Origin: a bacterium
GTDB taxonomy: Bacteria; Patescibacteriota; Andersenbacteria; UBA10190; CAIZMI01
Direction: 5' to 3'
Length of the DNA: 33,870 bases
Assembly: GCA_030647555.1 (NCBI GenBank)
Contig: JAUSJG010000029.1
Location: 1 to 33,870 of the forward strand
Shown one piece after another: positions 13,107 to 32,608 of this stretch. The translations under genes were made by a program, and so were the position numbers. The notes under the pieces are model-generated. The model did not search any database. It was not told the origin of the DNA and worked only from the letters and a program-made list of their open reading frames with translations. Every line of letters starts with the position of its first letter. Position 1 is the stretch's first letter.

Positions 13107-13204
13107 CGGCAGGATTAGGCCTCGAAACTTTCGTTGATACAAAAGTTTCTGGCCACCGGCAATCGGTTTCGTTGCGAACGAAACAACGATTGCCGTTCGA
13201 ATCC
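13107..13204 (-). repeat. tRNA-linked structured module R2
   Basis: On the minus strand the unit opens with GGATTCGAA, a copy of the tRNA-Arg T-loop side. It has a hairpin ending CGAAACCGATTGCCG, the linker GTGGCCAG, a second AAACTTT/AAGTTTC hairpin and GAGGCC, and closes with TAATCCTGCCGG. The GTGGCCAG...GAGGCC frame is shared with 14072-14214 and 32479-32608, although the stems differ. Confidence 0.7.
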
Positions 13205-13233
13205 GCAAGCGACACACGAAGGTGATACAACCC

Positions 13234-13358
13234 CGGCAGGATTCCTTTTTACTGTCAAAAACGCCTCGCTTCGCTCGATGCGTTTTTGACAGTAAAAAGC
13301 CTGGGTAGTTAAAACATTGAAGCAGTTCAATGTTTTAACTACCCTTCGAATCCTGCCG
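13234..13358 (-). repeat. tRNA-linked structured module R1
   Basis: The ends CGGCAGGATTC and GAATCCTGCCG form an 11-bp stem copied from the 3' part of the adjacent tRNA-Arg. Inside is a perfect 19-bp hairpin (13303-13344) with CTGC in the AACTGCTT loop. A perfect 20-bp hairpin follows (13245-13299). The plan is a three-way junction. It lies between the tRNA terminator and module R2. Confidence 0.75.
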
Positions 13359-13367
13359 TACTTTTAG

Positions 13368-13411
13368 AAGTAATATAAAACAGTCCCCAGGGGGACTGTT
13401 TTATATTACTT
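13368..13411 (-). terminator. Hairpin terminator after tRNA-Arg(TCG)
   Basis: A 21-bp perfect stem with a 2-nt loop directly follows the tRNA 3' end. The TAATATAAAA segment at its base is shared with the hairpin after tRNA-Leu (32907-32947). Confidence 0.65.
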
Positions 13412-13412
13412 G

Positions 13413-13486
13413 TGCCCCCGGCAGGATTCGAACCCACGACCTCCTGGTCCGAAGCCAGGCGCTCTATCCAGCTGAGCTACAGGGGC
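13413..13486 (-). tRNA. tRNA-Arg (anticodon TCG)
   Basis: Seventy-four nt fold as a standard cloverleaf. The acceptor is GCCCCTG/CGGGGGC with discriminator A, the anticodon loop CTTCGGA has TCG at 34-36, and the T-loop is TTCGAAT. CCA is not encoded. It decodes CGA and other CGN codons. It is followed by its own hairpin and by modules R1-R3 derived from its 3' end. Confidence 0.95.
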
Positions 13487-13501
13487 TTTATTTTTCTCTT
13501 G

Positions 13502-13573
13502 GGTGGCTAGAGGGTACCGCCCCCTCGTCTCCCGGACCACAACCGGACGTTCTACTATTGAACCATAGCCACC
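13502..13573 (-). tRNA. tRNA-His (anticodon GTG) with non-canonical elbow loops
   Basis: The 7-bp acceptor GTGGCTA/TAGCCAC is extended by an encoded G-1 facing C73, the hallmark of tRNA-His. The anticodon loop TTGTGGT gives GTG. The T-stem GAGGG/CCCTC encloses GGCGGTA instead of the usual TTCRANY, and the D-loop is AATAGTA, lacking the GG pair. All stems are intact, so it is probably functional with an altered elbow. It is 15 nt upstream of tRNA-Arg(TCG). Confidence 0.85.
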
Positions 13574-13663
13574 ACGTTTCAATTGGAAATTTAACCAATC
13601 TCTGAAAAACCAATATGGCAATACTATTCGAAATTCTATTAATAATCAAGCCAAGAAAAATGA

Positions 13664-13680
13664 TACCCACTTACAGTGGG
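13664..13680 (-). terminator. Terminator overlapping the stop of the 82-aa gene
   Basis: ACCCACT/AGTGGGT with a 3-nt loop that contains part of the TAA stop. The minus strand continues ATCATTTTT. The arrangement ends transcription immediately after the coding region. Confidence 0.6.
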
Positions 13681-13919: not shown

Positions 13920-14017
13920 GACTATTTTCCTCCAGTACAACGTGCAAAACAAATTGATCTTACAACACATTTTAAACCTTGAAAACATGCCTTGTTTAAA
14001 GTAGTATTCGTTCTTAA

Positions 14018-14071
14018 GCGCTCGTAGCTCAACTGGATAGAGCAAAGGGTTTCTAACCCTTAGGTTGGTGG
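14018..14071 (+). pseudogene. Truncated duplicate of tRNA-Arg(TCT), first 54 nt
   Basis: Identical to the first 54 nt of the complete gene at 14258-14311, 240 bp downstream. Identity stops at the start of the T-loop. The acceptor 3' strand is missing, replaced by the hairpin module at 14072-14214. On its own it cannot make a tRNA. Confidence 0.9.
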
Positions 14072-14214
14072 CTAAAATCAAGATTCACGAGCCAACTGCT
14101 TGGCTCGTGAACTGATTTTAGGCCCGGAGCGATGTTTTGCTCGCATTTGGCGAGCAAAACCGCGAGGGCGTGGCCAGACAAAATTTTCGGAAGAAAATTT
14201 TAGTCGAGGCCGAG
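14072..14214 (+). repeat. tRNA-linked structured module T1
   Basis: The order of hairpins is the family plan. H1 is CTAAAATCA/TGATTTTAG enclosing TTCACGAGCCAA/TTGGCTCGTGAA, with the AACTGCTT loop (14072-14121). HA (14122-14169) contains CGATGTTTTGC...AAAACCG. The linker GTGGCCA follows (14170-14176). HB is GACAAAATTTTC/GAAAATTTTAGTC (14177-14205). GAGGCCGAG closes it. It is fused directly to the partial tRNA. The remaining 43 nt before the full tRNA show nothing. Confidence 0.75.
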
Positions 14215-14257
14215 TACAGTTTATTAATTTGCGAAAATAATCTAAAGTCATAAGTAG

Positions 14258-14331
14258 GCGCTCGTAGCTCAACTGGATAGAGCAAAGGGTTTCTAACCCT
14301 TAGGTTGGTGGTTCGAGTCCCCCCGAGCGCA
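14258..14331 (+). tRNA. tRNA-Arg (anticodon TCT)
   Basis: Seventy-four nt with acceptor GCGCTCG/CGAGCGC, discriminator A, D-arm AGCTCAACTGGATAGAGCA, anticodon loop TTTCTAA (TCT) and T-loop TTCGAGT. All canonical positions are present. It reads AGA/AGG codons. A structured tail begins at the next base. Confidence 0.95.
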
Positions 14332-14606
14332 CTCGAGATTTGTTTCGCTTTGCGAAACTATCAAATGTACACAAAACGACTGCACGCCCTGTGCAGTCGT
14401 TTTGCACAAGAATCGAAGAACTCTCGAAATAGGTTTTGCTTAGCAAAACAAATATTAACGTACACAAACACGATTTTTACGGAACGTAAAAACGTGTTTG
14501 CACAAAGTTTGAAGAACTCTGGCGCAAGGTTTATCCGCGATAAACCGAGTGGCAGAGCAAGAGAATTTGCGATAAGAGACGCAAATTTTCGGAGCATCTT
14601 CTATAA
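14332..14606 (+). repeat. Structured tail element, copy 1, abutting tRNA-Arg(TCT)
   Basis: It begins CTCGAGATTTG and contains six hairpins, including GTTTCGC/GCGAAAC, AAAACGACTGCAC/GTGCAGTCGTTTT (14373-14403) and GTTTTGC/GCAAAAC. Others are built on GATTTTTACG/CGTAAAAAC, GGTTTATC/GATAAACC and AATTTGCG/CGCAAATT. Two tandem half-units share GTACACAAA...TTGCACAA and GAAGAACTCT. An inverted copy is at 32208-32481. It ends just before the receiver gene stop. Confidence 0.8.
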
Positions 14607-14629
14607 ACAACTCCGCAACCCCACCTTTT

Positions 14630-15016
14630 TTAAACGTATCTTATTTTTTTCTTCTGTGGCAAATATTTTTCTATCAAATCACACAGGCCACTCAAGCCAT
14701 AACTTGTCTTAATAATGCTTTTGGAAACACCTAACTCCGCGGCCGCGTGAGCTTTCGATTCATCACCGGATTCCAGCAAAAAAACAATCGGCACATTTTT
14801 TAGATCTTGGTCACCCTTTATTTGTGCCAATAAAGTTAGCCCATCAATGTCTGTCAGAATTCCATCTATAACTATCACATCCGGTCGAACATGCAACTTG
14901 CGTAACGCCTCCCCACCATTAGTGGCCGGATCTACATCAAAACCGCGTTCCTCCAACTCTTCGCACAACGTGGAAAGTAACGCTTGCTCGCTTTCAACTA
15001 CCAGAATTTTTGGCAT
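14630..15016 (-). CDS. Stand-alone response-regulator receiver domain
   Basis: The 128 residues are one CheY-like receiver with no output domain. Asp51 (VIDG) is the expected phosphoacceptor, and the conserved Lys is in SIIKTSY near 103. The usual acidic pair after strand 1 is Glu-Ser-Glu (residues 8-10), and the Thr/Ser after strand 4 is in LLESGD. It overlaps the kinase gene by 23 nt and is its likely partner. As it has no DNA-binding domain it would act by protein contacts. Confidence 0.88.
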   Translation of the reverse strand: MPKILVVESEQALLSTLCEELEERGFDVDPATNGGEALRKLHVRPDVIVIDGILTDIDGLTLLAQIKGDQDLKNVPIVFLLESGDESKAHAAAELGVSKSIIKTSYGLSGLCDLIEKYLPQKKKIRYV

Positions 15017-15908
15017 TGTTATTATTATTTTCGTACGGATCCATTACGGGAAGCGTAAAGAAAAATGTTGACCCGTAACCTTCGCGTGATGAAAACCAAA
15101 TCGCCCCATCATGTTGTTCAATTATTTTCTTCACCAAAAAAAGTCCTAATCCTGTACCGCTTTCATCGGTCGCCACTGCTTTCTGACCGCGAAAAAATTG
15201 GGTAAAGATATTTACTTGTTCCTCTTTGGCAATACCGATACCCGTGTCTTCGATACTGCACACTACATATTCCGCTTTAATATTTTCATCCAAGACATTA
15301 TGAACAACATCGGCCGGAGCAATCTCCCGCGTTTTTCTAACCGTGACTGTAATGGTGCCCCCGCGTGGCGTATATTTCACCGCATTACTCAAGATGTTTA
15401 CAGTGACCTGATAGATTCTTTCCGGATCGCCAATCGTTAAGGGAATCTGCGCGGAATCGGCCGACCATTTTACAACAACGCCCCTTTTCAATGCTTCTCG
15501 CTCGTTTGTTCGCAATGCCCTTCTCACCACTTCCACCAACTGCATCGGCCGTTTTGCTACCAAAAAAGCACCTTCTTGCATCTTGGCGACGTTTAATAAG
15601 TCTTCTACCAATGTTACCAATCGAGTATTCGCTTCACTAATCCGTTTTAAAACTTTTGTAACATCCGGCTTATTCGCTTCTTCACCTAAAACTTTTAGAA
15701 GTCGCTCCATATTCCAAGAAAGCGAGGTAATCGGCACCTGCATCTCATGCGCTGTCATCGATAAAAATCTTTCCGAAGGCATCGGGAAAGTTTCTTTAGC
15801 CACTTCCTTTGTCGGTGTTTTTTTTAGACCGGTTGCGAAGTTCGGCGCCTTATTGGCAAAATTGACTATGTTTATGTCGTTCTCTGTCACAAGGACATGA
15901 TAGCACAA
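14994..15908 (-). CDS. Soluble sensor histidine kinase
   Basis: The longest frame has 304 residues starting with TTG; a GTG lies six codons later, so the start is uncertain. His54 lies in SMTAHEMQVPI (HisKA), followed by HATPase_c with N-box NILSNAVKYTP (171-181), DTGIGI (221-226) and GTGLGL (251-256). No transmembrane helix or PAS/GAF domain is present. The roughly 45-residue N-terminus is too short for a sensor, so the signal must come from a partner protein. It is translationally coupled to the receiver gene. Confidence 0.9.
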   Translation of the reverse strand: MCYHVLVTENDINIVNFANKAPNFATGLKKTPTKEVAKETFPMPSERFLSMTAHEMQVPITSLSWNMERLLKVLGEEANKPDVTKVLKRISEANTRLVTLVEDLLNVAKMQEGAFLVAKRPMQLVEVVRRALRTNEREALKRGVVVKWSADSAQIPLTIGDPERIYQVTVNILSNAVKYTPRGGTITVTVRKTREIAPADVVHNVLDENIKAEYVVCSIEDTGIGIAKEEQVNIFTQFFRGQKAVATDESGTGLGLFLVKKIIEQHDGAIWFSSREGYGSTFFFTLPVMDPYENNNNNAKNSGS

Positions 15909-16006
15909 TTTTTAATTTGAAATTTACAATTTGAAAGACACAAATTTTAAATATCTAAAACAACATTTTCAAATTGATTAAAAATTTCAAATTAAAAATT
16001 AAAAAT
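15908..16006. repeat. AT-rich inverted repeat, 'aatttgaaattt' variant
   Basis: Arms of taatttgaaatttacaatt and its imperfect reverse complement face each other upstream of the kinase gene. It has the layout of the elements at 3425 and 18999 but lacks the GC-rich centre. Confidence 0.6.
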
Positions 16007-16025
16007 TCGATAGCGATTACGCACA

Positions 16026-16055
16026 AAAAAACTGGCTCAACCGAACCAGTTTTTT
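16026..16055. terminator. Bidirectional terminator-like hairpin
   Basis: AAAAAACTGG pairs with CCAGTTTTTT, with T runs on both strands. A second nested structure at about 16119-16162 (GAGCGTC/GACGCTC) lies just after the stop of the 169-residue gene. Confidence 0.6.
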
Positions 16056-16170
16056 CCCCTTATCAGTAACCACTAAATAATTAATGATTACTGGTAAGTG
16101 GACGAGTTTTTATTCGGCACTCGTTACTTGGCAGAGCGTCCAATTGACGCTCCGCGAAACGAGTCTCGTC

Positions 16171-16680
16171 CTACGCCGGAAGTTTCTCGGGCAGTTTCTC
16201 ATGCCCCACTTCGAGGATTTCTGACTCCTCGAGCGGTCGAAAAACTCCCACTCCCCTCAACCCTGTGTCGACAGGTCGCCCTTCTTCCCAGTGGATTCCA
16301 CAGGGCGGTTCGAGGGTGAGTATTTCACCACGGAAGGTTTCCCCGTCAATCACTTTTTGGGAGACACAGATGATCCGCCCTTGTCCGCCCACCAAGAGCT
16401 TGTGGTAGAACTTATCGGTCCATACTGTTGTTCCAACAGCGACCAATGTCCGAACCACCGCGAGTCGAACCATTTCAGAATCAAGCTCCGTAGGCTTAGT
16501 TGCACTAAAGACCACGTTCTTGATCCGCCGAACGCTCCCGCATATGGAGAATTCCACCTCCTTCGGCTGTGGTTTCAACAAAATAGTGACTCCCTCTCCC
16601 GCGCAACACAAATTAACGTTGTGTTGTAACAGATACCAAAACGCCTCCTCCCTAGTCATAAATTTTAGCTCCAACACCAC
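16171..16680 (-). CDS. Hypothetical soluble protein, 169 aa
   Basis: GAGGAGGT stands just before the GTG at 16680; the TTG that follows has better spacing, so the start may be one codon later. The N-terminal segment (MTREEAFWYLLQHN) looks helical and the rest a mixed beta protein. There are four Cys in unrelated contexts and no membrane segment. I do not recognise it. Confidence 0.7.
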   Translation of the reverse strand: MVLELKFMTREEAFWYLLQHNVNLCCAGEGVTILLKPQPKEVEFSICGSVRRIKNVVFSATKPTELDSEMVRLAVVRTLVAVGTTVWTDKFYHKLLVGGQGRIICVSQKVIDGETFRGEILTLEPPCGIHWEEGRPVDTGLRGVGVFRPLEESEILEVGHEKLPEKLPA

Positions 16681-16778
16681 ACACCTCCTCTCTAAAGACC
16701 CAGAACGGGACTGAAAAGTTTACAACAAGAGACCAATTCTGAAAGAACGGCCCCCTTTATACACATGGTATTCCTATA

Positions 16779-16898
16779 TTATTTTTTTTGCACCTTTTCA
16801 CGCAGATCAATAATCCACGCGATCAGGTACACAACGATCCATGGCAACACCGCCCAAAAAATCAGCGACGGTGACCAGACGTTAATGTGATCAAACAT
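16779..16898 (-). CDS. Single-helix membrane peptide, 39 aa
   Basis: A short frame starting MFDHINVW has AAGGAG 6-7 nt before its ATG. One hydrophobic helix (about 10-30, Trp and Ile rich) is followed by a basic end (LREKVQKK), so the C-terminus should be cytoplasmic. Function is unknown, but the ribosome site and clean composition favour a real gene. Confidence 0.6.
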   Translation of the reverse strand: MFDHINVWSPSLIFWAVLPWIVVYLIAWIIDLREKVQKK

Positions 16899-17028
16899 TC
16901 CGCACTCCTTTGTTTACCACGTGGTCGCGTGAGTGCGAAGCACTTTTACGCGACTTTACGTGGCAAAAAATCCACCTTCTCGATTCAGCAACATCCATAC
17001 TGCTAAATCCAGAAGTAGATTCGTTCGC

Positions 17029-17056
17029 GTAGGGGCAATTCATGAATTGCCCCTAC
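17029..17056. repeat. 28-bp perfect palindrome around GGGCAATTCATGAATTGCCC
   Basis: The sequence is its own reverse complement over 28 bp. The 20-bp core recurs at 23883-23902. It lies in the gap between two small genes and has no gene of its own. Confidence 0.7.
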
Positions 17057-17123
17057 AACGGAACTAATTCATATATTTAGAACATCATCTAAACATTCGA
17101 AAAAATCGAATACTTAGAAATGC

Positions 17124-17150
17124 CTCGGTTCTCAACGTGGAGAACCGAGT
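17124..17150 (-). terminator. Hairpin after the 123-aa gene
   Basis: CTCGGTTCTC pairs with GAGAACCGAG around a 6-nt loop. Another hairpin (CACA-CCGACC/GGTCG-TGTG) lies between it and the gene. The nearest T run is about 20 nt beyond, so the terminator call is tentative. Confidence 0.4.
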
Positions 17151-17208
17151 AGACTGCACACCGACCCCAATTGGTCGATGTGTGAAAAAAGAACACTACT
17201 AACTACTG

Positions 17209-17580
17209 TCACGATGCGGCGCGCTCCCGCGGCGGAACCTTCGACATCGTGCCAGAGATCGTCGTCACCCGCACTTCGGTGACCTCGATTTTTTCGATAA
17301 CATCGCCGAATGGGGGAAACTGACTCCCCGGCCAGTATACGACCGCAATAAGATCGCCGGCCAAGGGCAACACTTCGCCTGCGCGACTCAAAAAGCCATT
17401 GCCACCGCATCCACCGTAGGACTTATACTCACCGTCCGGGAGGAGGCTGTAGTTCAGCGGTTTTCCGATCAACTTCTTCCGCTGCTGTGCGAGGTCGCGA
17501 TTCCTCTTCGCCACAACCAACAAAGAGATCACTCCGAACAAAACCGCCAAACCCACGTACCCAGTTTCCATCCACGTCAT
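17209..17580 (-). CDS. Membrane-anchored hypothetical protein, 123 aa
   Basis: An N-terminal helix (about 6-24, GYVGLAVLFGVISLLVV) is followed by a basic segment (KRNRDLAQQRKK) and a roughly 85-residue soluble part. That part includes GEVLPLAGDLIAVVYWPG, which looks like a small beta barrel. GGAGGG is 8 nt before the ATG. The family is not recognised. Confidence 0.7.
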   Translation of the reverse strand: MTWMETGYVGLAVLFGVISLLVVAKRNRDLAQQRKKLIGKPLNYSLLPDGEYKSYGGCGGNGFLSRAGEVLPLAGDLIAVVYWPGSQFPPFGDVIEKIEVTEVRVTTISGTMSKVPPRERAAS

Positions 17581-17718
17581 GGCCGAAGCCCTCCGTAAAA
17601 AACAAACTCAAACATCGAGTCGCCGGAGCTGAACACCCCTCAAACGACTCCCGCTTCTAGTGGCAAATTGCCAACAAAAGTGAGAGGCGGATTTCATGGT
17701 TTGAAATCCGCACAAAAG

Positions 17719-17925
17719 TTACTGCTTCACGACACGGAAACCGGTCGCATCGAGACGCAACCGGTTGCCGTTCACGAGCCCGGGTCTTTGCAGACAAAGC
17801 TCGTGAAACGCTTCCCGTTCGCCGGGAAGAAGCGGGTGCGGTTGCCTTAGCAACTGCACTAACTTTCGCCACGACCGCCGCTTATGCAAACGGCCCATGG
17901 CAACAAAAAATTCCATTGTGCTCAT
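17719..17925 (-). CDS. Small basic hypothetical protein, 68 aa
   Basis: AAGGAGGG lies 4-5 nt before the ATG, a strong site that decides the start. The product is Arg/Leu rich (GRLHKRRSWRKLVQLLRQ), probably helical and basic enough to bind nucleic acid. No homologue is recognised. Confidence 0.6.
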   Translation of the reverse strand: MSTMEFFVAMGRLHKRRSWRKLVQLLRQPHPLLPGEREAFHELCLQRPGLVNGNRLRLDATGFRVVKQ

Positions 17926-17942
17926 TCTTCCCTCCTTGAATC

Positions 17943-18064
17943 GGGTCGGACTGCTGTAGCGGTCCGACCCGCATTGGACGACGCGACGCTACGACCAATC
18001 AAGGTCGGACCGCTCGGCAGTCCGACCTTATTGTCAATGGGACCGACCCAACAAGAGTTGGTCC
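17943..18064. repeat. GGTCGGAC palindrome pair with linker, plus a related hairpin
   Basis: GGGTCGGAC/GTCCGACCC (17943-17970) and AAGGTCGGAC/GTCCGACCTT (18001-18029) are joined by a linker. The linker ends ATTGG and CCAAT can pair, and it reads ACGACGCGACGCTACGA between them, almost the same as the one at 2718-2756. A third hairpin, GGGACC/GGTCCC, ends at 18064. Confidence 0.8.
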
Positions 18065-18116
18065 CTTACGCGACTCATCACCAAAGACAAATCATATTAT
18101 CTTCATTGATGAGTTT

Positions 18117-18150
18117 CCCAAGTCGTTGTGTCTAGCACAAACGACTTGGG
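18117..18150. terminator. Strong hairpin after the 83-aa gene
   Basis: CCCAAGTCGTT pairs with AACGACTTGGG, continued by GTG/CAC with one bulged A. It lies about 25 nt downstream of the 83-residue gene. There is no T run, so it may be a processing or repeat structure instead. Confidence 0.4.
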
Positions 18151-18174
18151 ATAAATTGATTATTTCGCCCGCGA

Positions 18175-18426
18175 CTAGCGCAGTCTGGGCTTCTGCGACG
18201 CGCCGAGCGAGCGACGGGCGGTGTCGCCCATCACGCGCACGTACACGTCGCTCGACGTGTTCGTCTGGGCGTAACGAATCCTCTCGTTATGCCACGCCGG
18301 CGACGGAGACGGCATCTCCACCGTCACCCGCGCGAGCGAAACGATCGACGTCGGCTTCTTCTGCCGTGCCGCCATCCTCGCCCGCACACTCGCCACCGCC
18401 ACCGGGTCCTTCAACAAATTCGCCAT
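18175..18426 (-). CDS. Small basic hypothetical protein, 83 aa
   Basis: The ATG at 18426 (MANLLKDPVAVASVRARMAARQKK) has AAGGA about 9 nt upstream; the longest frame begins six codons earlier. It is Arg and Ala rich at both ends with a short Ser/Pro segment near residue 45. There is no membrane segment and no recognised family. It is the last of the row of tiny genes from 16779. Confidence 0.6.
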   Translation of the reverse strand: MANLLKDPVAVASVRARMAARQKKPTSIVSLARVTVEMPSPSPAWHNERIRYAQTNTSSDVYVRVMGDTARRSLGASQKPRLR

Positions 18427-18532
18427 TTTCTGGATCCTTATCAAATGGCTTCGACCGCTTTGTCCTTCACCAATCCAAGTGAAACACGGTCAAAAGAAAA
18501 ATTACTCTCGGGACAATCAAGAGCTCCTCCGA

Positions 18533-18617
18533 TATTCTTGAATAATGAAATATGAGTAATGAATTATGATACGCGTTGTCCGCCTTCATCATTCATTTTT
18601 CGTCATTCATCATTCAC
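18533..18617. repeat. Inverted repeat of 'aatgaatgatgaa' words
   Basis: The left arm ttgaataatgaaatatgag and the right arm cattcatcattca are imperfect reverse complements around a GC-richer centre (ACGCGTTGTCCGCC). It is a third sequence type with the same plan as the other AT-rich elements. Confidence 0.55.
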
Positions 18618-18644
18618 CGTCTTTCCCCCATCAATGGCGACCAG

Positions 18645-18860
18645 CTAGAAAACTAACTGTGCCGCCATAGATGAGGTGCCGAAATTTCTTTCAGCACCCT
18701 TCAGGTTGATTAAGTATGAAGTGCAATCGCTTTTATACGATTGTGCCGGCCTTTTTAAGACCGTTGGTCTTCGGGGTGTGTTTTGACAGCAAAAGCCGTA
18801 AAATATTCCCGCTCCATACTCAATTCCCGTATTCAATTGTCAAAGGATCTGGTCTCTCTT
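18645..18860 (-). other. Gene-free structured stretch
   Basis: Several short hairpins (GGTGC-GAAA/TTTC-GCACC, CAATCG/CGATTG, AAGACC/GGTCTT) follow a TTGACA box on the minus strand near 18842. The only frame starts with TTG and reads through the hairpins. It could be a small RNA, but no known family was recognised. The rest of the 18427-19179 gap holds the two inverted repeats. Confidence 0.3.
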
Positions 18861-18998
18861 CCGAACCCTGTGATTAGATAAGGGATAATTGTACTCCCAA
18901 AATACGAAAATGTCAATAGTAACTTAAAGACACTACTATTTTATGGCTTTTATTAGGCATTTTCTTTTGTTCCAAACACACACAAATCCTATCGCTTT

Positions 18999-19129
18999 TA
19001 ATTATCAATTTTCAATGACCAATTATCAATTAATAATCAATTCTTAAATTATCAAGTAACGGCGTCGTCAATTGATAATTGTATCATTGATAATTAATTG
19101 AAAATTGGGAATTGAACATTGAAAATTTG
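18999..19129. repeat. AT-rich long inverted repeat element, copy 2
   Basis: The arms match those of 3425-3588, including the same gaattgaacatt and gataattaattgaaaa words. The centre is shorter and reads GTAACGGCGTCGTC. It lies 50 bp past the ComM stop. Confidence 0.75.
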
Positions 19130-19179
19130 ATTCCATATTGAGATTGCTTCGGTGCTGAAGCATCTCGCAAGGACTACAA

Positions 19180-20691: not shown

Positions 20692-20736
20692 AAGGGCGTT
20701 TTTTGCGAGTGTTTATTATTGCTTTTCATTACCTAT

Positions 20737-20742
20737 ATTATA
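20737..20742 (-). promoter_or_regulatory. -10 box of the comM promoter
   Basis: TATAAT preceded by GTG on the minus strand, with a weak -35 (TTCGCA). The leader would be about 40 nt. Confidence 0.55.
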
Positions 20743-20767
20743 CACGAAAACGACTGCGAACCCACGC

Positions 20768-20809
20768 CCACTCACGGAACGGAGCAACCTTGCTCCGTTC
20801 CGTGAGTGG
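20768..20809. repeat. Perfect 20-bp hairpin upstream of comM
   Basis: CCACTCACGGAACGGAGCAA and its exact complement are separated by CC. No T run follows on either strand. It lies between the 53-residue gene and the comM promoter and could affect transcription of comM. Confidence 0.6.
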
Positions 20810-20867
20810 TGTTGGTCGTCTTTACGCCATTTTCTTTCTTCAAATACTTTTAAATAAAAACCTATTC

Positions 20868-21029
20868 CTAACGAGACTTGTGTGCCGATTCATTTGTCGC
20901 CAAAAACGAAATTGCTTTCCAGACCCGCCGTTCCGCTTCGCTTTTGGACAAACGATTATCCAAATAAGCCTCTTCTAGAAATTTCATTCTATTGCTTTTT
21001 CTTCCTGTTTTATTTTTACCCCCAAACAT
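20868..21029 (-). CDS. Small basic hypothetical protein, 53 aa
   Basis: GAGGAGGT stands 9-10 nt before the ATG. The sequence begins MFGGKNKTGRKSNRMK and continues with an amphipathic helix (FLEEAYLDNRLSKSEAERR) and WKAISFLATNE. It may be a short DNA- or protein-binding helix pair. No family is recognised. Confidence 0.6.
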   Translation of the reverse strand: MFGGKNKTGRKSNRMKFLEEAYLDNRLSKSEAERRVWKAISFLATNESAHKSR

Positions 21030-21151
21030 TATAAATTCACCTCCTCATATTTTGCGTAGTCTTTGCCAGGCCGACTTCGCAGGCCGAAGCCGCCCATCTG
21101 GGCGAGCCTCGCTCTGAAGAGCGGGCAATCTCCGCAATTAAATTAACAACA

Positions 21152-21397: not shown

Positions 21398-21488
21398 ACT
21401 TCCCCCCTCCTTTCTTCTTAAAATGATATTTACTTAACAAGAAGAACATACAACGGATTTAAAAACCGCGAAGTGAGAAACATCACAA

Positions 21489-24975: not shown

Positions 24976-25104
24976 CTTTCAACTCAACTCATAAACCCAC
25001 ACAACTTTTATGTGCGAATAAACTTTATAAATCCATATACTATATACCAAATACCATATACAAATCTGAATCTCCCCTCGCTCTTCTTCAAACAAAGCAA
25101 CTAT

Positions 25105-25149
25105 AAAAAATTAGGGATTCTCCTGCGAAAGGAAAATCCCTAATTTTTT
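25105..25149. terminator. Bidirectional terminator
   Basis: AAAAAATTAGGGATT pairs with AATCCCTAATTTTTT, with an inner TCC/GGA. It ends the large membrane-protein gene at 25167 and is symmetrical on both strands. Confidence 0.8.
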
Positions 25150-25166
25150 CATCCCCTACCCCCTCG

Positions 25167-26915
25167 TCAGTACGCGATATTACCCGTGAAAACTCCCGTC
25201 TTGATTGGTTCAAAATAGGTTGAGGTAAAACCGGAGAGCATTGTTTTTAAAGCCGTCGGCAAACGACCTACGGTATTTTCATCCAAACGCATATATTGCC
25301 AATCGGCTTGACCGGTGCTTTGCAGTGCAAAGTTGTTTGCAAAGTTTTCCGCGTCTCCTTTATAGGCATCAATCATCTGTTCCATACTGGTTTTTGACGT
25401 AGAAACCAAAAGCAATGAATCGACAATGGCATAATCAAGAGAACGGCTGGGGTCGCCAAAGTTTACATACCGAATAGCGACATCTTTGTAAATGTTGTCT
25501 TCAAATACAACGTCCGAATATGGCGCCCCGCCAATTAGTGGACCCAAAAGTTTCAATGCGTCTTCAAGACTGGACATTTGCTCTTTAACCAAGACGGATA
25601 TTTTCACCTTAAACAAGGTGGACACTTGCTCTTTAACCAAGGCGGAAGTCCCGTCTTTTAATGGTAAAACCGCTATCCCATCAGGAATCGGCGTCGTATT
25701 CGCCAATGTTCCAACCACAAAATTGTCGGCAAGATTCGCTTTTAGCGCGTCACTTGTTTTAACTTGCGCGGTTAAAGCATTAAGGAAACCTTGCATTTGC
25801 GGATTATTTGATTGAACTTGACGCCACTGTTCCGCGCTGGCAGACAAGCTCCCGTGACCGGCCAACGCGATAATCGAAGCAGGAATTGCTTTTATAGGCG
25901 TCTCCCACGAAATCTGATTTTTTACGAAATTTTCATTACTGCCGTTTGTACCCATTAAAGAAAAGGTTTTTCCACCTTCCGTAGAGGGTGCGACCGCAAA
26001 AAGATAAGCGGGACTTTGTTCTTTAGTCAAAAGAGAAAAAACTGACAACATAGAGGCGCTTTCTCCCGGGCCGAGATAAATATATTCAGGACTTGCCGGT
26101 AATTTAGATGACAAAGCGCGAAAATCGCCATTATCACCCAAACTCTTACCGCTTAATCCATCCAAACGACCCGCCTCTTTTGCATCGACAATCGCTCCGT
26201 TACCATTGGCGAGATTTTTCAAAACAAAATTTGAATTTTCACCAAGACTAATAGAGCTCGCGTCATCTGTCATAAGAAAACTAACAGGTTCGGATGACGT
26301 GCTTCCGGGAATAACCACGTATACCAGATCACTCCACTTAGTGCCAAGAGCGTTGCTATCCAACCCCATACTGGCAAGAATTTTTGGTAAAACGACATTT
26401 TCCAATGCCCCTGAACCGCGTTTGATACTAACGAATGCAATAGTTTCTGCCGGAATTTTATCCGCGATTGTGCTGGTTTTCTTTGGCCAAAAAATATAAA
26501 CCGCAAAAATTACGGCTGCGATTATTACTGCCGTCCCTCCACCCAAAAGCATACTCACAAAAAACGACTTTTTATCGGCTTGAGTAGTGACACTTGGCAT
26601 CGCCACCGTGTTACCAACGATTGGTTTTGGCGTTACACTAGGAATTGGAAATACTGCCGGACGCGAAACCGGTGGTTTTTGCGCCGTAGACGTCTGCCTT
26701 ACTACAGGCATTACAGACACTGTTGGTTGTTGCACCGTCTTTACCACGACAACAGGCGCCTCTGCCGTAACAGGAACCGAAACTCCCTTACTTACTTCCA
26801 ACAAATCATCAGCCATTGTCCTAATAACCGGCATCACAAAAGTAGCAGAGAGCGCATCCTCTGCTTTCTTTTGCAATTCATTGTTTTGTGGTTGTTGGTT
26901 TTGTTGTTGGTTCAT
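25167..26915 (-). CDS. DUF3352-like membrane-anchored protein, 582 aa
   Basis: The ATG at 26915 begins MNQQQNQQPQNNE; the longest frame adds five codons from a TTG. A Gln/Pro/Val-rich linker (about 1-110) precedes one helix (about 116-146, FFVSMLLGGGTAVIIAAVIF). The roughly 430-residue extracellular part has the pattern of DUF3352 proteins: ADKIPAETIAFVSIKRG, YIYLGPGES, and a late YAIVDSLLLVSTSKTSMEQMI. The role of the family is unknown. Assignment is from memory of these motifs and should be taken as likely. Confidence 0.75.
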   Translation of the reverse strand: MNQQQNQQPQNNELQKKAEDALSATFVMPVIRTMADDLLEVSKGVSVPVTAEAPVVVVKTVQQPTVSVMPVVRQTSTAQKPPVSRPAVFPIPSVTPKPIVGNTVAMPSVTTQADKKSFFVSMLLGGGTAVIIAAVIFAVYIFWPKKTSTIADKIPAETIAFVSIKRGSGALENVVLPKILASMGLDSNALGTKWSDLVYVVIPGSTSSEPVSFLMTDDASSISLGENSNFVLKNLANGNGAIVDAKEAGRLDGLSGKSLGDNGDFRALSSKLPASPEYIYLGPGESASMLSVFSLLTKEQSPAYLFAVAPSTEGGKTFSLMGTNGSNENFVKNQISWETPIKAIPASIIALAGHGSLSASAEQWRQVQSNNPQMQGFLNALTAQVKTSDALKANLADNFVVGTLANTTPIPDGIAVLPLKDGTSALVKEQVSTLFKVKISVLVKEQMSSLEDALKLLGPLIGGAPYSDVVFEDNIYKDVAIRYVNFGDPSRSLDYAIVDSLLLVSTSKTSMEQMIDAYKGDAENFANNFALQSTGQADWQYMRLDENTVGRLPTALKTMLSGFTSTYFEPIKTGVFTGNIAY

Positions 26916-26950
26916 TTGATTTAATTTCAACGGGGATTATCCCCTACCCT

Positions 26951-29062
26951 TTATTCTACCTTTTTTGCGCGTTTATGCGAAAGGTTAATCCGGCCCTTAT
27001 CATCAATCTCGATTACAACGACTGCAATTCTATCGCCAACCTTCACGACATCTTCCACACGGTTCACGCGTTGATCCGCCAATTCGGAAATGTGCACCAT
27101 CCCTTCAATGCCCGGCAAAACTTCCACAAAAGCGCCAAAATTCATCAAACGAGTGACGCGACCATCGAAACGTTCGCCGGCTTTTACTTCGTGCGTCAGG
27201 TTTTCCACCCATACTTTGGCTTTTTCCATACCGACCGGATCTTTGGCGGTAATGGTCACCAAACCGTCATCTTCAACATCGATTTGGACACCGGTTTCTT
27301 CAATAATCTTATTGATATTCTTGCCTTTTGGACCAATTAAATCACCAATCTTTTCCGGGTTGATGCGAATCGTAATTAAACGTGGTGCAAATGGCGACAT
27401 TTCTTTACGCGCTTCTTTAATCACTGCCTCCATCGTTTCCATAATGCTCAAGCGCGCCGTTTTAGCACCCTTGATCGCCTGTTCAATCACATCCATCGAA
27501 ATTCCGTGGGTTTTGATATCCACCTGCACCGCCGTGACACCCTTTTTCGTGCCGGCCACTTTGAAGTCCATATCACAACCTTCGTCTTCCATTCCGGCAA
27601 TATCGGTTAGCACAACAGACTTGCGACCTTGAGATTTCTCATCAGTAACCAAACCCATTGCAATTCCGGCAATCGTGGAAGGAATCGGTACACCCGCGTC
27701 CATCAAGGCCAGCGAGCTACCACAAGTAGAACCCATCGAGCTAGAACCGTTCGATGAAAGCACTTCAGAAACGGCCATAATTGAGTAACCAAATTTTTCC
27801 TTGTCAGGAATGAGCCCCGAAACAGCCTTTTCTGCCAAAGCACCGTGACCGATATCACGACGACCGGGACCACGATTTGGACGCACTTCATGCACGGAAA
27901 AGCCCGGAAAATTGTAGAAATGCATATAGCGTTTCTCAAAATCATTGTCCGTCATTGTGTCGAGCAACATCGCGTCGCCGGGAGAACCAAGCGTGATTGT
28001 GGTCAATACTTGTGTTTCACCACGTTCAAACAAAGCCGAGCCGTGGGTTCGCGGGACGATACCAAGACGTGCTGTAATTTTACGCACTTCATCCAAACCA
28101 CGACTGTTCATCCGCTTCCCTTCGTTCAAAATTTTCTCACGCGTGATATCGCGATAAATTTCTCGAATCGCTTTTTTGGCAAAAGAAACATCTTTGTCTT
28201 TAAGACCCAATTCAGCGACAACTTTCGCCGTTAGTTCCGAATATCCTTTTTCGATGTCCAACTTTCGACCGCCTTTTTCAAAAATCTCTTCGGCTGATTT
28301 TTGGGCGACTTCCTTAATACGCGCCACTAATTCCGCCGGAACATCCGATTTAATATAGTCACTCTTCTGGACGCCAAATTGTTTTTGAATGTCCAAAATC
28401 AATTCGGCAATTGCGGAAACTTCTTTCTGCCCCACTTTGATTGCCTCAAATAAAGTATCCTCGGCCACTTCCTTGCCTTCGGCTTCAATCATCACTACCT
28501 CATCCTTATTGCCCGAAACAATCAAATCCAATTCACTCTTTACGATATCAGCGACTTTTGGGTTGATCACAAATTGACCGTCGATTTTACCAACGCGCAC
28601 CATCGCGAGTGGACCGGCCCACGGTGTACGAGAAATAGTCAACGCGGTACTGGCGGCAATCATCGCCGGAACGTCCGGTTGGTGTTCCCCATCATAAGAC
28701 AAGACAGTCGTGACCACTTGCACGTCGTTTAACATATTATCGGGAAACAGTGGACGCAAAGCGCGATCAATCATCCGACTGGTTGTTACTGCCGTATCTG
28801 TTGGACGCCCTTCACGTTTTACAAAACGACTGCCCTTTATTTTACCGGCGGCATAATATTTTTCTTCGTATTCCACCAAAAGTGGCATATAATCCACCCC
28901 CGGACGACATTCGCCCGACATTACCACTGTTGCCAACACAAAAGTCCCGCCAATTTGACAGGTCACCGATGCGTCGGCTTGTGGCGCTAATTCGCCGATT
29001 GTTAATACAAACTCTTCACCACCGATGGTTTTTTTAAACTCGTTTGATTTGGCTTCCGCCAT
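26951..29062 (-). CDS. pnp: Polyribonucleotide nucleotidyltransferase (PNPase)
   Basis: At 703 residues it has both RNase PH-like cores, the linking alpha domain, KH (IGPKGKNINKIIEETG) and S1 (FDGRVTRLMNFGAFVEVLPG) domains in order. The catalytic half retains VLSSNGSSSMGSTCGSSLALMDAG and the Asp region MEDEGCDMDFK. It degrades RNA 3' to 5' with phosphate, or adds nucleotides in reverse. Downstream of rpsO in the usual gene order, separated by the AT-rich repeat. Confidence 0.97.
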   Translation of the reverse strand: MAEAKSNEFKKTIGGEEFVLTIGELAPQADASVTCQIGGTFVLATVVMSGECRPGVDYMPLLVEYEEKYYAAGKIKGSRFVKREGRPTDTAVTTSRMIDRALRPLFPDNMLNDVQVVTTVLSYDGEHQPDVPAMIAASTALTISRTPWAGPLAMVRVGKIDGQFVINPKVADIVKSELDLIVSGNKDEVVMIEAEGKEVAEDTLFEAIKVGQKEVSAIAELILDIQKQFGVQKSDYIKSDVPAELVARIKEVAQKSAEEIFEKGGRKLDIEKGYSELTAKVVAELGLKDKDVSFAKKAIREIYRDITREKILNEGKRMNSRGLDEVRKITARLGIVPRTHGSALFERGETQVLTTITLGSPGDAMLLDTMTDNDFEKRYMHFYNFPGFSVHEVRPNRGPGRRDIGHGALAEKAVSGLIPDKEKFGYSIMAVSEVLSSNGSSSMGSTCGSSLALMDAGVPIPSTIAGIAMGLVTDEKSQGRKSVVLTDIAGMEDEGCDMDFKVAGTKKGVTAVQVDIKTHGISMDVIEQAIKGAKTARLSIMETMEAVIKEARKEMSPFAPRLITIRINPEKIGDLIGPKGKNINKIIEETGVQIDVEDDGLVTITAKDPVGMEKAKVWVENLTHEVKAGERFDGRVTRLMNFGAFVEVLPGIEGMVHISELADQRVNRVEDVVKVGDRIAVVVIEIDDKGRINLSHKRAKKVE

Positions 29063-29227
29063 AATTTAGACCTTTCTGTTTTCGCCGGTTTTACCAATTT
29101 ATTTAACCGATCATCATGCAACAAGGTTTATTGAGGATTTTCCCGCAAACCATGTGTGTATGAAGACCGTCTAAGAAGTTGGGCGCTCTAATTGCCGATC
29201 GAAATAATAATGAGAGAACGCAACGCT

Positions 29228-29390
29228 AATTTTCAATTTTCAATGATCAATTTTCAATTAATGTTCCAGCCTTCGCTAAAGCTTCGGCCGGCAAGCAATT
29301 CCCCAATTTTCAATAAACATCGTCGCGGTTTTTGGTTATTGAATCATTGGACAATTGATTGAAAATTGGAAATTGATAATTGAAAATTTG
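29228..29390. repeat. AT-rich long inverted repeat element, copy 3
   Basis: Arms of aattttcaatgatcaatt and tgattgaaaattgg face each other. The centre carries CCTTCGCTAAAGCTTCGG, identical to copy 1 at 3425. It separates rpsO from pnp; the remaining bases of this 400-bp gap show nothing. Confidence 0.75.
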
Positions 29391-29465
29391 GGAACCAACT
29401 TACACAGCTGACGGATAGGTGAACACAATATCTTATTTCCTGAACCACAACTATTGTGCTCCCTC

Positions 29466-29735
29466 TTATCCTTTAAGCTTGAGTTTTTTGACGATTTGCG
29501 TATAGCGCGGCAAATCTTCACGCTGTAAATAGGTTAACAAACGCTTGCGCTTGCTTACCATTCCCAAAAGACCACGACGAGAGTGTTGATCTTTCTTGTG
29601 CGTCTTCAAATGTTCGGTCAATTCCACGATTTTTTCCGTGAAAATGGCAATTTGAACCTCCGGTGAACCGGTGTCCGTCTCATGAATACGAAACTTTTGA
29701 ATAATCTTCGGTTTTTCAGAATCGACTTTGCTCAT
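29466..29735 (-). CDS. rpsO: 30S ribosomal protein S15
   Basis: The 89 residues match S15 in length and in the conserved [31 protein letters not shown] and KRKRLLTYL blocks. It binds 16S rRNA helices 20-22 early in 30S assembly. It is upstream of pnp, as in most bacteria. No Shine-Dalgarno is obvious before the ATG. Confidence 0.97.
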
Positions 29736-29805
29736 ATGTATGGTTTATAGGGTAACATAAGAGTGTTTTTTCTGCAACCGACGATGCCTAGCACGGCATC
29801 GTCAT

Positions 29806-29936
29806 TGCGAGCCATCGACAATTGTTAAAATTGTCGAGGCGCGGCAATCCCCTCACTTGCCAAATACGGAAGATTGCTTTATCGGTAACCCTCGCAGGGT
29901 CTGCCTCGCCTCGGGCGATGGCTCGCAAAGACTTAC
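29806..29936. repeat. TTGCGAGCCATCG inverted repeat element
   Basis: The outer arms TTGCGAGCCATCG and CGATGGCTCGCAA enclose an ACAATT/AATTGT hairpin and GCGGCAATCCCC...GATTGC. It belongs to the widespread 'CATTGCGAG...CGGCAATC' type of palindromic element; a partial relative is at about 23750. Confidence 0.65.
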
Positions 29937-29975
29937 ATCAAAAAAAATCCCCATCGGCCGAAACCAGTAGAAAAA

Positions 29976-29996
29976 ACCGCGGGACGTATCCGCGGT
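29976..29996 (-). terminator. Terminator of the 110-aa gene
   Basis: ACCGCGG/CCGCGGT with a 7-nt loop, followed on the minus strand by six T in total. It is 24 nt past the stop. Confidence 0.75.
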
Positions 29997-30020
29997 TGGT
30001 GACTTCGACTAACAGTCAAA

Positions 30021-30353
30021 CTACAAAGGGGTTAAGTCGACCCTTATCTTTTCCCCAAAAAAGGAGGCCCCAATGGTTCCTACTGTTTGAACTCCGTCCG
30101 TAACCCTTGCGATAAATGAACCAAACAAACGGGGAGACCTATCTCCAATCACCCGAATGCGAAATCCGTCCACCACAGTTTCGCTCATCCGGTCAAAAAA
30201 GAGCTCAAGACTAGCCTCACGATCAATCACCTCGGAAATCTTTACCAGTTCGTTGTGTTCAGGAAACTGCGCCCCAGTTGTTTCCACCAACAAGGGCTGT
30301 ATTGTTTGCGTCCACAAACGAAGCAATTCTCTTTCTTTGTCTTCATTATCCAT
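30021..30353 (-). CDS. Hypothetical soluble protein, 110 aa
   Basis: The ATG at 30353 (MDNEDKERELLRLW) has GGGAG 8 nt upstream; the longer frame begins 15 codons earlier without support. A helical N-terminal half is followed by beta-rich sequence (GFRIRVIGD, FIARVTDGVQTVGTIGASFFG). No family is recognised. Confidence 0.65.
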   Translation of the reverse strand: MDNEDKERELLRLWTQTIQPLLVETTGAQFPEHNELVKISEVIDREASLELFFDRMSETVVDGFRIRVIGDRSPRLFGSFIARVTDGVQTVGTIGASFFGEKIRVDLTPL

Positions 30354-30468
30354 GACATTCTCCCACAAACCAAAGGAACAAAAAACAACACCAAACAATT
30401 TTTCGCAGGTTCAAGGTAACACAGTATTCAATAGTTGTCCACTTTAAGGATCATCCCTAAAGTGCGCG

Positions 30469-30498
30469 TTGACGAAACCTCCCCCCTTCTGCTATCTT
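30469..30498 (+). promoter_or_regulatory. Promoter suited to a leaderless mRNA
   Basis: TTGACG, an 18-nt spacer and TATCTT end 8 nt before the ATG at 30507. Transcription would start at or beside the start codon. Confidence 0.6.
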
Positions 30499-30506
30499 GC
30501 TCTGTC

Positions 30507-31418
30507 ATGGCAAAGATACTTTTAATCACAAATCCTCGTCCCACAGCCCAAGAGCAAGAGGTTGCTTTGCAACTTTTGTGGCAATATCGAAAACGCGAAA
30601 ACGATGCTTCACTGCAACCGGGTGGTTTTTTTTCGACACTTGTCTCCCTGTTTACAACCAATGCGGATGTTTATGATTTTCACGATCTCCATTCCGCCCT
30701 ACTCATTCCGTTGTTCCAAATTTTGCGCCGAAACTCGTCTATCGTCTTTTCATTGTATGGATCCGAACGAACGAAGGGTCTCGGTTACTACATCGGGATA
30801 AAATTTGCGGACCAAATAGTAACTTCAGAAAAGACATTGCAGTATGAAATTTATCGAAAATATGGACGCCTTCCCACCTATGTTCCACTTGGTGCCACAC
30901 TTTCAAAGAAATTTTTAAGACAAGGAAAGAAAAATTTCACGCGCCTTGGCCTGATTGCCGATCAAAAACGTACCAATAACATCACACGACGTTATAAATC
31001 CAAACGCGTGAAATTTTGCGCAATTTCTGAAAACGAAATTGATTCCGATGACTCATTTACCACGATGCAAAATGTGGCCGCGCTCTTCTTGTTAAAAACT
31101 AACTTGGATACCGGAACGCTAAGAAAAATTGCATTGTTGGGTTTACCAATCGTCACGTTTGATACCGAACACAGCAGAGACATTTTCCGCAATAATGCGT
31201 TATATATTCCCTTTGCTTCCCCACTTGCGGTTGAAAACGCAATTAAAGAATTAAAAAGGAATTATTCGCAATACCGCGCGAAAGCAAAGTCTCTCCAAAA
31301 ATTCACAACTAATCTATTTAGCTGGGAAACCGTTGCAGGCGAATACCTTAACGTATATCAAAAATCAAAACTGACCGGCGTGCCCTTGGACTCTTTATCC
31401 AAAGCGGAAGCGGTATAA
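30507..31418 (+). CDS. Glycosyltransferase-like protein (GT-B C-terminal features)
   Basis: The ATG at 30507 gives 303 residues beginning MAKILLITNPRP; 24 upstream codons overlap the promoter. The C-terminal part has the GT4-like pattern of a conserved pocket (LLGLPIVTFDTE), a mid-sequence PFASPLAVENAIKEL, and a final helix WETVAGEYLNVY. A clear E-x7-E or sugar-nucleotide signature is not visible, so it may be a degenerate or divergent transferase. It is likely cytoplasmic and stands alone on the plus strand. Confidence 0.65.
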   Translation: MAKILLITNPRPTAQEQEVALQLLWQYRKRENDASLQPGGFFSTLVSLFTTNADVYDFHDLHSALLIPLFQILRRNSSIVFSLYGSERTKGLGYYIGIKFADQIVTSEKTLQYEIYRKYGRLPTYVPLGATLSKKFLRQGKKNFTRLGLIADQKRTNNITRRYKSKRVKFCAISENEIDSDDSFTTMQNVAALFLLKTNLDTGTLRKIALLGLPIVTFDTEHSRDIFRNNALYIPFASPLAVENAIKELKRNYSQYRAKAKSLQKFTTNLFSWETVAGEYLNVYQKSKLTGVPLDSLSKAEAV

Positions 31419-31479
31419 AGGGGCGGAAGCTAAGCGAAGTACAAACCCGATCTATACCATATATTGTATTTTGCGGATG

Positions 31480-31971
31480 TCAACACCCCGAGCTAAACTC
31501 GGAGGATGCGGGCACATATTTCGCTCGTACCTCGGCGATACGTGCCCAATGCTGACGATAAAAAGCAACAACCTCGGGCTTACACGCATATAGATTGGGT
31601 TTTTTTAGGTAATCGATGGGTGTGGTGGGTATACCTGGCCATTCAAGCTCGTATTCATTCCAAAAGTTTGTAAACAGTCGATTATCTCTTTCAAACACCA
31701 GCAATATCTCGATCATAATCTCATGACACAGAAAGGCGCGTTTATGAGGAAAGTGTTTCGCTGGTATTTCTGTTATATCGATCTGTTTTTTTATAAATAC
31801 GTCAACTTTCTTGAAACTATCGCTTATATACAGAATATCTATGTCGCTGTGTTGTCGAGGTGCAATTGCACCTGTTAATTCTTCAGCCCAACCACCGAAG
31901 ATTACGCACGCAATACCCGCTTGTTGCAATCTAGTAACTATGTAGCGGAGAAAGTCAAAGTTATTTTCCAT
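31480..31971 (-). CDS. Nucleotidyltransferase-fold protein (ANT/LinB-like)
   Basis: The N-terminal 50 residues have the pattern VIFGGWAEELTGAIAPRQHSDIDIL: a GG helix followed by Arg-x-His-x-Asp-Ile-Asp. This is typical of aminoglycoside 2''- or lincosamide nucleotidyltransferase-like proteins, where the two Asp bind metal. The 163 residues are a normal size. It may modify a small molecule or be a divergent nucleotidyl-transfer enzyme. Resistance activity is not implied. The gene follows the 83-residue frame by 23 nt. Confidence 0.75.
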   Translation of the reverse strand: MENNFDFLRYIVTRLQQAGIACVIFGGWAEELTGAIAPRQHSDIDILYISDSFKKVDVFIKKQIDITEIPAKHFPHKRAFLCHEIMIEILLVFERDNRLFTNFWNEYELEWPGIPTTPIDYLKKPNLYACKPEVVAFYRQHWARIAEVRAKYVPASSEFSSGC

Positions 31972-31994
31972 GTTGACGATCGGTTTTTCCTGTT

Positions 31995-32246
31995 TTAATA
32001 ATCTTCTTCCGTATCACTCCGACAAACAAACGAAATGCTGAGTGCTTTCATTGTTTCTAAAATTTCCTCGGTGGGTATCATAAAAGAGAGTATACCAGAT
32101 TTGATAAGAATTTCTCGCCCTTTCGTCCGCTTTTCCATACCAAAAAAGACACGTGCACATTCAAAAAATGGTGATTCACTCGCGGAAGCCAAGCAGTTGT
32201 GTTGTGATATAGAAGATGCTCCGAAAATTTGCGTCTCTTGTCGCAA
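31995..32246 (-). CDS. Small ORF whose 5' part lies in repeat sequence
   Basis: The 83-codon frame begins inside the structured tail at 32208. It includes a half copy of the GGAAGCCAAGCAGTTG hairpin word at 32183-32199. The C-terminal segment (about 30-83, VFFGMEKRTKGREILIKSGILSFMI...) looks coding and could start at ATG 32138. It may be the end of a gene truncated by the tail insertion, or a small independent gene leading the nucleotidyltransferase. No family is recognised. Confidence 0.45.
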   Translation of the reverse strand: MRQETQIFGASSISQHNCLASASESPFFECARVFFGMEKRTKGREILIKSGILSFMIPTEEILETMKALSISFVCRSDTEEDY

Positions 32247-32481
32247 ATTCTCTTGCTCTGCCGTGCGGTTTATTGCAAATAACCCGCACGCCAGAGTTCT
32301 TCAATCTTTGTGCAAACACGTTTTTACGTTCCGTAAAAATCATGTTTGTGTACATTAATAATTGTTTTGCTAAGCAAAACTCATTTCGAGAGTTCTTCGA
32401 TTCTTGTGCAAAATGACCAAACTGGATGTTTGGTCATTTTGTGTACATTGTATGGTTTCGCAAAGCGAAACAAATCTCGAG
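32208..32481 (-). repeat. Structured tail element, copy 2
   Basis: The reverse complement matches 14332-14606 along its length. The first and third hairpins are identical. The second differs: AAAATGACCAAAC/GTTTGGTCATTTT (32410-32440) replaces AAAACGACTGCAC/GTGCAGTCGTTTT, with four changed pairs, each compensated. The distal end TATAGAAGATGCTCC is shared. It continues directly from module L2. Confidence 0.8.
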
Positions 32482-32608
32482 AGACTCGGCCTCGAAACTT
32501 GAAATGATTTTCAAGTTTCTGGCCACCGGAAATCGGTTTCGCTTAAGCGAAACATCGATTTCCGTTCGAGTCTCTCACGGAAGCCAAGCAGTTGGCTTCC
32601 TCGTGCCC
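32479..32608 (-). repeat. tRNA-linked structured module L2
   Basis: On the minus strand it starts with GGGCACG (the 5' acceptor strand of tRNA-Leu). The hairpin GGAAGCCAA/TTGGCTTCC with its AACTGCTT loop follows, then GAGAGACTCGAA. Next come a CGGAAATCGATGTTTCGC hairpin, GGTGGCCAG, an AAACTTGAAA/TTTCAAGTTT hairpin and GAGGCC, ending in GAGTCTCTC. The 3' acceptor strand is lost where the tail begins. Confidence 0.75.

Follow-up and report, generated by a model that had tools for sequence, protein, structure and literature searches.

The ends of tRNA genes in this genome and its relatives carry a family of structured units. It is well supported that these units copy local tRNA sequence in both sense and antisense, occur as presence/absence alleles and are selected on one strand. 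We interpret them as structure-bearing insertion cassettes, absent from Rfam, placed at the T-loop/3′ end of tRNA genes. The case for this reading is in our judgement evenly balanced, and we prefer it to the reading of each unit as a tRNA-like RNA gene.

The window (the whole stretch of DNA analysed, 33,870 nt) is one contig of a 1.32-Mb genome of 31 contigs, the source genome G000. The genome of its sister species, G001, shares about 80% nucleotide identity with it in syntenic blocks. The window includes four full units and a reduced variant, R1, arranged as follows.

13106–13232, minus strand: R2, full unit (model match 13113–13203; fold), composed of H0 (loop CTTC, about 13205–13232), antisense T-arm, H1, GTGGCCAG, H2, GAGGCC and right arm TAATCCTGCCGG
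13233–13357, minus strand: R1, reduced variant, composed of antisense T-arm, hairpin (loop AACTGCTT), long hairpin and copy of the T-arm 3′ half (fold; stems replaced in the sister species, pairing kept)
13367–13411, minus strand: Y, perfect terminator-like palindrome immediately 3′ of tRNA-Arg (TCG) (sequence, fold)
13412–13486, minus strand: tRNA-Arg (TCG), owner of R1 and R2 (ARAGORN, Rfam)
14015–14071, plus strand: partial tRNA-Arg (TCT) copy ending at the T-stem 5′ strand, with a unit set into its T-loop (98% identity to 14255–14311; Rfam score under the cut-off)
14072–14219, plus strand: full unit (model match 14114–14216; fold), composed of H0 (14072–14121), H1 (14122–14169), linker and H2 (14170–14211) and a decayed right arm GAGTACAG
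14258–14332, plus strand: intact tRNA-Arg (TCT) (ARAGORN, Rfam)
14332–14605, plus strand: array of element A, a second structured family, beginning right after tRNA nt 74 (repeat; copies after other tRNAs)
32208–32481, minus strand: inverted copy of the element A array, adjoining the right arm of the next unit
32476–32608, minus strand: full unit (best model match 32483–32572; fold), composed of acceptor complement GGGCACG (32602–32608), H0, antisense T-arm, H1, GTGGCCAG, H2, GAGGCC and right arm GAGTCTCTC
32614–32649, minus strand: Y, terminator-like palindrome separating the two tRNA-Leu (TAG) units (sequence, fold)
about 32650–32802, minus strand: fourth full unit, of the second H2 subtype (GGGTCGCG...CGTGACC; model match 32659–32766), with right arm GAGTCTCTCCGTGC (32650–32663)
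32949–33030, minus strand: tRNA-Leu (TAG), owner of the units at 32476–32608 and 32650–32802 (ARAGORN, Rfam)

The three units of the preliminary description (13107–13204, 14072–14214 and 32479–32608) were recovered in place and in the order hairpin, linker, second hairpin, GAGGCC, and R1 indeed carries the loop AACTGCTT attributed to it. A preceding hairpin, H0, had been counted in two units only. This hairpin exists, but in all full units; it had been missed at 13107–13204, where the core loop is CTTC instead of CTGC.

On the tRNA-sense strand, the tRNA 3′ end is first repeated in antisense (X′, split by H0); GAAC, H1, GUG, H2 and a copy of tRNA nt 57–74 (X) follow. The inserted stretch itself runs from X, often through a Y hairpin, to X′ split by H0, then GAAC, H1, GUG and H2, after which comes the second X. 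The tRNA's own 3′ end stays complete, and the second X lies at the far side of the cassette, which is gene-less and has a median size of 168 nt (range 97–226, 55 close cases). The core loop of H0 is CTGC, TAAT, TAGT or CTTC. H1 contains a bulge of two bases (AT), joined in most units from outside the source genus by a GGA/GA internal loop. H2, of which two subtypes occur across the family and both within this window, is closed by four covarying pairs (GGCC/GGCC, GGCT/AGCC, GCCC/GGGC or GGTC/GACC).

The units had been proposed to copy tRNA sequence at their ends, and in many of them the right arm exactly repeats the last 18 nt of the tRNA, R57 to C74. At least 17 of the 18 positions agreed with the unit's own tRNA in about 42% of testable copies (33/74), compared to 0.1% with other tRNAs. 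Sequence often diverges immediately past this X copy; in many other copies the distal X is decayed or carries small insertions. That one arm repeats the local tRNA 3′ end (nt 57–74) in sense and the other in antisense goes beyond the preliminary description, as do the filled and empty alleles of the sister species and the assignment of the structured strand, described below.

Folding of the stretches holding the three units first described gave z-scores of −6.2, −7.9 and −15.9 against shuffles, the first and third stretches also including tRNA or R1 sequence. Across 41 sequences, 93.1% of cells pair, compared to 69.3% in shuffles and 24–46% in slid controls, and changes on both sides were found at 29 of 30 pairs; these alignments were fitted to the covariance model, so that the pairing figures lean toward the structure. 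With this reservation, covariation exceeds that of shuffles in sequences from several lineages. In the paired columns of 98 sequences, G-U cells outnumber A-C cells (88 versus 29). Since mutation alone should give equal numbers, the tRNA-sense strand is the folded and selected one, with which RNA and ssDNA are both compatible. Circularised between nt 57 and the H2 end, the cassette folds as a closed multi-arm molecule (median z −7.4), with X and X′ paired in 49 of 55 close copies.

A DNA search of the source genome gave more copies, mostly adjoining tRNA genes. With a first covariance model, built from eight of the source-genome copies, we obtained 18 matches in G000 and 17 in the sister species (E ≤ 1), and others in three further families of the phylum. 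A second model, built from 41 matches, located about 100 copies; their carriers number 22 among 380 genomes of the phylum, with no carrier in a small control of 12 genomes from other phyla. This recurrence outside the window, on many contigs and in 22 genomes, shows that the units do not stem from an artefact of a single contig. Upstream of 80 of 99 copies, a same-strand tRNA gene lies within 500 nt, and for 58 within 100 nt, with about 35 isoacceptor kinds represented; matches do cluster at tRNA genes. Most copies for which no tRNA was recognised nearby still bear tRNA-like arms, and some sit at contig ends. Tandem units occur at single tRNAs. Distribution is patchy, with no copy in the same-family genome G002 or in ten sampled genomes of the same order. 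The same head is present across many families of the phylum. In a comparison with Rfam 15 only tRNAs matched, the weak sub-threshold matches being microRNA-type hairpins. Group I or II introns and known ncRNAs were ruled out on this basis, and the initial view that the plan fits no known family is borne out among the RNA and mobile-element families tested, together with the general view of a tRNA-linked structured family with covarying stems and fixed linkers. A literature search, largely confined to papers outside subscription journals, returned no description of such elements.

The suggested comparison of related genomes revealed two loci polymorphic between the sister species. Both tRNA-Tyr and tRNA-Leu(CAG) are filled in G000 and empty in G001, the filled allele corresponding to the empty one plus a unit and an 18-nt duplication of the tRNA end. 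In G001 the tRNA runs straight into element A, whereas in G000 Y, the unit and a second X, in this order, come between the tRNA and element A. Synteny holds on both flanks at tRNA-Leu(CAG) and on the upstream flank at tRNA-Tyr, where the other flank is rearranged. A clean gain or loss with an 18-nt repeat of the tRNA end at its borders separates the alleles, which are as readable in one direction as in the other. At tRNA-Arg(TCG), R1 and R2 are retained in both species. The R2 head is 94% identical between them, against about 79–84% for adjacent coding blocks, while the stems of R1 have changed almost wholly with pairing intact. For 51 of 90 heads the nearest relative lies in the same genome, and for 11 of 90 at the same tRNA kind; heads with 95–99% identity belong to units that differ in tRNA, H0 and arms, for instance those at tRNA-Asn and tRNA-Pro in G238. 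This likeness by genome rather than by tRNA kind suggests that heads move or convert between tRNA loci, the arms being local.

Two companion families were found at tRNA genes. Element A has 19 matches in G000 and 16 in G001 and follows X in both filled and empty alleles. At the loci examined, it usually begins just past tRNA nt 74 or past the distal X of a unit. Family C lies upstream of tRNAs and starts with a copy of the tRNA's first ~12 nt (nt 1–12). Such a mirror arrangement favours insertion with duplication of a tRNA end as a general process over one special RNA.

Among the genomes tested, the presence of units is not paralleled by a dedicated integrase, an HUH transposase or a reverse transcriptase. 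A phage-integrase-type gene is present in every genome tested, carrier or not, with a single one each in G000, G001 and the non-carrier G002. A dedicated integrase was rejected as no carrier-specific one was seen among these genomes; the units themselves are too short to encode a gene. Origin from HUH transposons (REP/RAYT, IS200/IS605) was discarded because the Y1 transposase gene is missing in several carriers (G036, G065, G238, G132, G048 and G145), and a retroelement origin because reverse transcriptase is missing in G000, G036, G132, G162 and G290. Scans of viral contigs with three exact patterns, which may miss variants, gave two matches, neither scoring with the model; a virus origin was set aside, these scans being empty or at chance. 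A similar pattern scan of GTDB contigs gave 16 stretches, of which only three, from the sister genome CAIZMI01, scored with the model, the others being chance. A Xer-type tyrosine recombinase, present in all genomes tested, is the sole candidate enzyme seen, a candidacy reached only by elimination.

How could such units arise? The insertion cassette accounts for copy number, tRNA adjacency, right arms copied from the own tRNA, filled and empty alleles, near-identical heads at different tRNAs, tandem units and patchy distribution, as well as for the circular fold, one-strand selection and the mirror family C. Against it stand the enzyme result above, the retention of the tRNA-Arg(TCG) unit since the sister split at an identity above that of coding blocks, as a host function predicts, the decay of the distal copy in many units and the two possible directions of change at the polymorphic loci. 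Nor would a circle simply passing from one tRNA to a different one give local arms. The unit could instead be a tRNA-like RNA gene, transcribed with or after the tRNA and processed by tRNA enzymes to a stable RNA, a possibility that we consider rather doubtful. The antisense arm would form the 5′ acceptor strand and T-strand, matched by the right arm as 3′ strand; H0 would stand in for the D and anticodon arms and H1/H2 for the T-loop. The strongest support for such a gene is the long retention seen at tRNA-Arg(TCG). Selection of the tRNA-sense strand, with G-U pairs, and conservation of bulge, internal loops and linkers agree with it, as do the acceptor complement, H0 and T-helix, which mimic tRNA topology in many units, and two tRNA copies that retain D and anticodon arms with a unit in the T-loop (window 14015–14219; locus L049). 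However, Y is a clear intrinsic terminator between tRNA and unit in 19 of 59 close cases, the acceptor complement is absent from many units outside the source genus, and the G-U share of canonical pairs is lower in units than in same-locus tRNAs (3.5% versus 6.0%, the tRNA yardstick being ARAGORN-accepted pairs only). Presence/absence between sister species also speaks against an RNA gene, which moreover gives no reason to expect a mirror family at the 5′ ends of tRNAs.

Neutral by-products of replication, i.e. slippage or tandem duplication with template-switch correction of quasipalindromes, would make the covariation mutational. The long perfect hairpins and fast sequence turnover of R1, the low G-U share and the tandem copies fit with this, yet correction would be strand-symmetric, in contrast to the G-U excess over A-C, and would erase bulges, while the AT bulge, the GGA/GA loop and the linkers GAAC, GTG and GAGGCC are conserved across units. 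Since an identical head type also occurs in many families of the phylum, this explanation, already disfavoured, appears improbable. Splicing from the T-loop of a tRNA intron that spans nt 57 through H2, with the distal copy completing the tRNA, would agree with boundaries between C56 and R57 and with excision restoring a tRNA. It is very improbable, as the tRNA is already complete with the proximal copy, the distal one is decayed in many units and no Rfam intron family matches.

For the preferred insertion cassette, we infer the mode of movement, and any RNA action, from these features. The tRNA-sense single strand, as ssDNA or RNA, would fold, and its paired sense and antisense arms would recreate, next to the conserved head of H1 and H2, a tRNA end in double-stranded form. 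A recombinase could then swap the tRNA end of the folded cassette with that of the chromosome, by analogy with the folded attachment sites of integron attC or phage CTX attP, but at tRNA genes. Gene conversion among heads or copying of the target may place a head between local tRNA arms. Somewhat short of an even case, we propose a new class of minimal mobile element. This would be a gene-less, self-folding single-stranded cassette, which would use the universal T-loop of some 35 tRNA kinds, carry the last 18 nt in sense and antisense so that the tRNA survives, and be moved by a host enzyme, the mirror family doing likewise at the tRNA 5′ end.

tRNA genes are favoured docking sites of mobile DNA; to our knowledge, the elements that use them are large and encode an integrase. 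Imperfect hairpins with one structured strand, in which stems vary with pairing kept, also make up integron attC sites and, in phage CTX, the folded attP. The units resemble these sites in such respects, but are tied to tRNA genes instead of cassette genes and have a three-way head and tRNA-copying arms, with no IntI identified; G000 and G001 have neither cassette genes between units nor an extra integrase. tRNA-like RNAs such as tmRNA and bacterial Y RNA join an acceptor/T-stem stack to extra domains, a combination also seen in the units. The latter differ by the absence of an Rfam match and by their multiplicity within a genome, every copy having the acceptor and T sequence of the tRNA next to it. 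Integrative elements of tRNA genes with tyrosine recombinases use the T stem-loop or the 3′ end as att site, according to PMC8371274 (citing Williams 2002). As in these, direct repeats of the tRNA 3′ part, starting in the T-loop, flank the insert, the tRNA is restored and units may be in tandem. In contrast to these, the units are about 170 nt long, encode no gene and hence no integrase, have an internal antisense copy of the tRNA end and a conserved folded head, and occupy about 35 tRNA kinds with local arms, a dedicated integrase not having been found. Compared to REP/REPIN elements and their RAYT transposases (e.g. PMC3116915), the units are likewise short, gene-less, palindromic, multicopy and structured, but they are restricted to tRNA ends, have a different anatomy and occur in several carriers devoid of a Y1 transposase gene.

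Small genomes with about 45 tRNAs, as found here, would fit Patescibacteria. As judged from the loci, a gene-less unit of ~170 nt occupies up to about a third of the tRNA genes of a small genome. The cassette and RNA readings can be separated by experiment. Either the units would rank with the smallest known integration modules, or they would represent a tRNA-derived structured RNA of a new class.

Besides the gene-less structured units carried at tRNA 3′ ends, a second structured and covarying family, element A, follows the plan TCGAGATTTG-hairpin-ATGTACACAAA-hairpin-GCACAAGAATCGAAGAACTC. The element is frequently arranged in arrays and in most cases starts immediately 3′ of tRNA nt 74; strong matches are confined to the genus of the window's genome (G000). 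Family C comprises three-hairpin elements located immediately 5′ of tRNA genes. At their start these elements repeat roughly the opening 12 nt of the tRNA, as with GCGCGCGTAGCT ahead of tRNA-Val. It occupies four places in G000 and one in the sister species G001. Both families were located as follows (locus coordinates are local):

14332-14605 and 32208-32481, window: element A
L139-L149, other loci: element A
L192, about 1500-1620: family C
L198, L199, L200 and L193: family C

At another locus of G000 (L049, about 1394-1660, contig C5), a unit lies inside the T-loop of a tRNA-Arg copy adjoined by an intact tRNA-Arg(CCG), an arrangement matching that of window 14015-14332. Upstream of tRNA-Arg(TCG), the minus strand carries an additional tRNA (13502-13572), which was detected by Rfam but not by ARAGORN. 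The tRNA cluster is adjoined by a gene (12324-12926) whose protein product contains a Bro-N domain (E 6e-10); such domains are frequent in viruses.

Other repeats were also observed in the window. One type, A/T-rich and palindromic (AATTTTCAATTATCAAT), occurs in several copies and both orientations (3423-3602, 18997-19128 and 29228-29389). The extreme end of the contig (33729-33870) is a perfect 71-nt inverted repeat without spacer, representing either a genuine hairpin terminus or a fold-back introduced during assembly.

The window's two arrays of element A themselves form 274-nt inverted repeats (14332-32481), 89% complementary and separated by 17.6 kb, which could mediate inversion of the intervening stretch.
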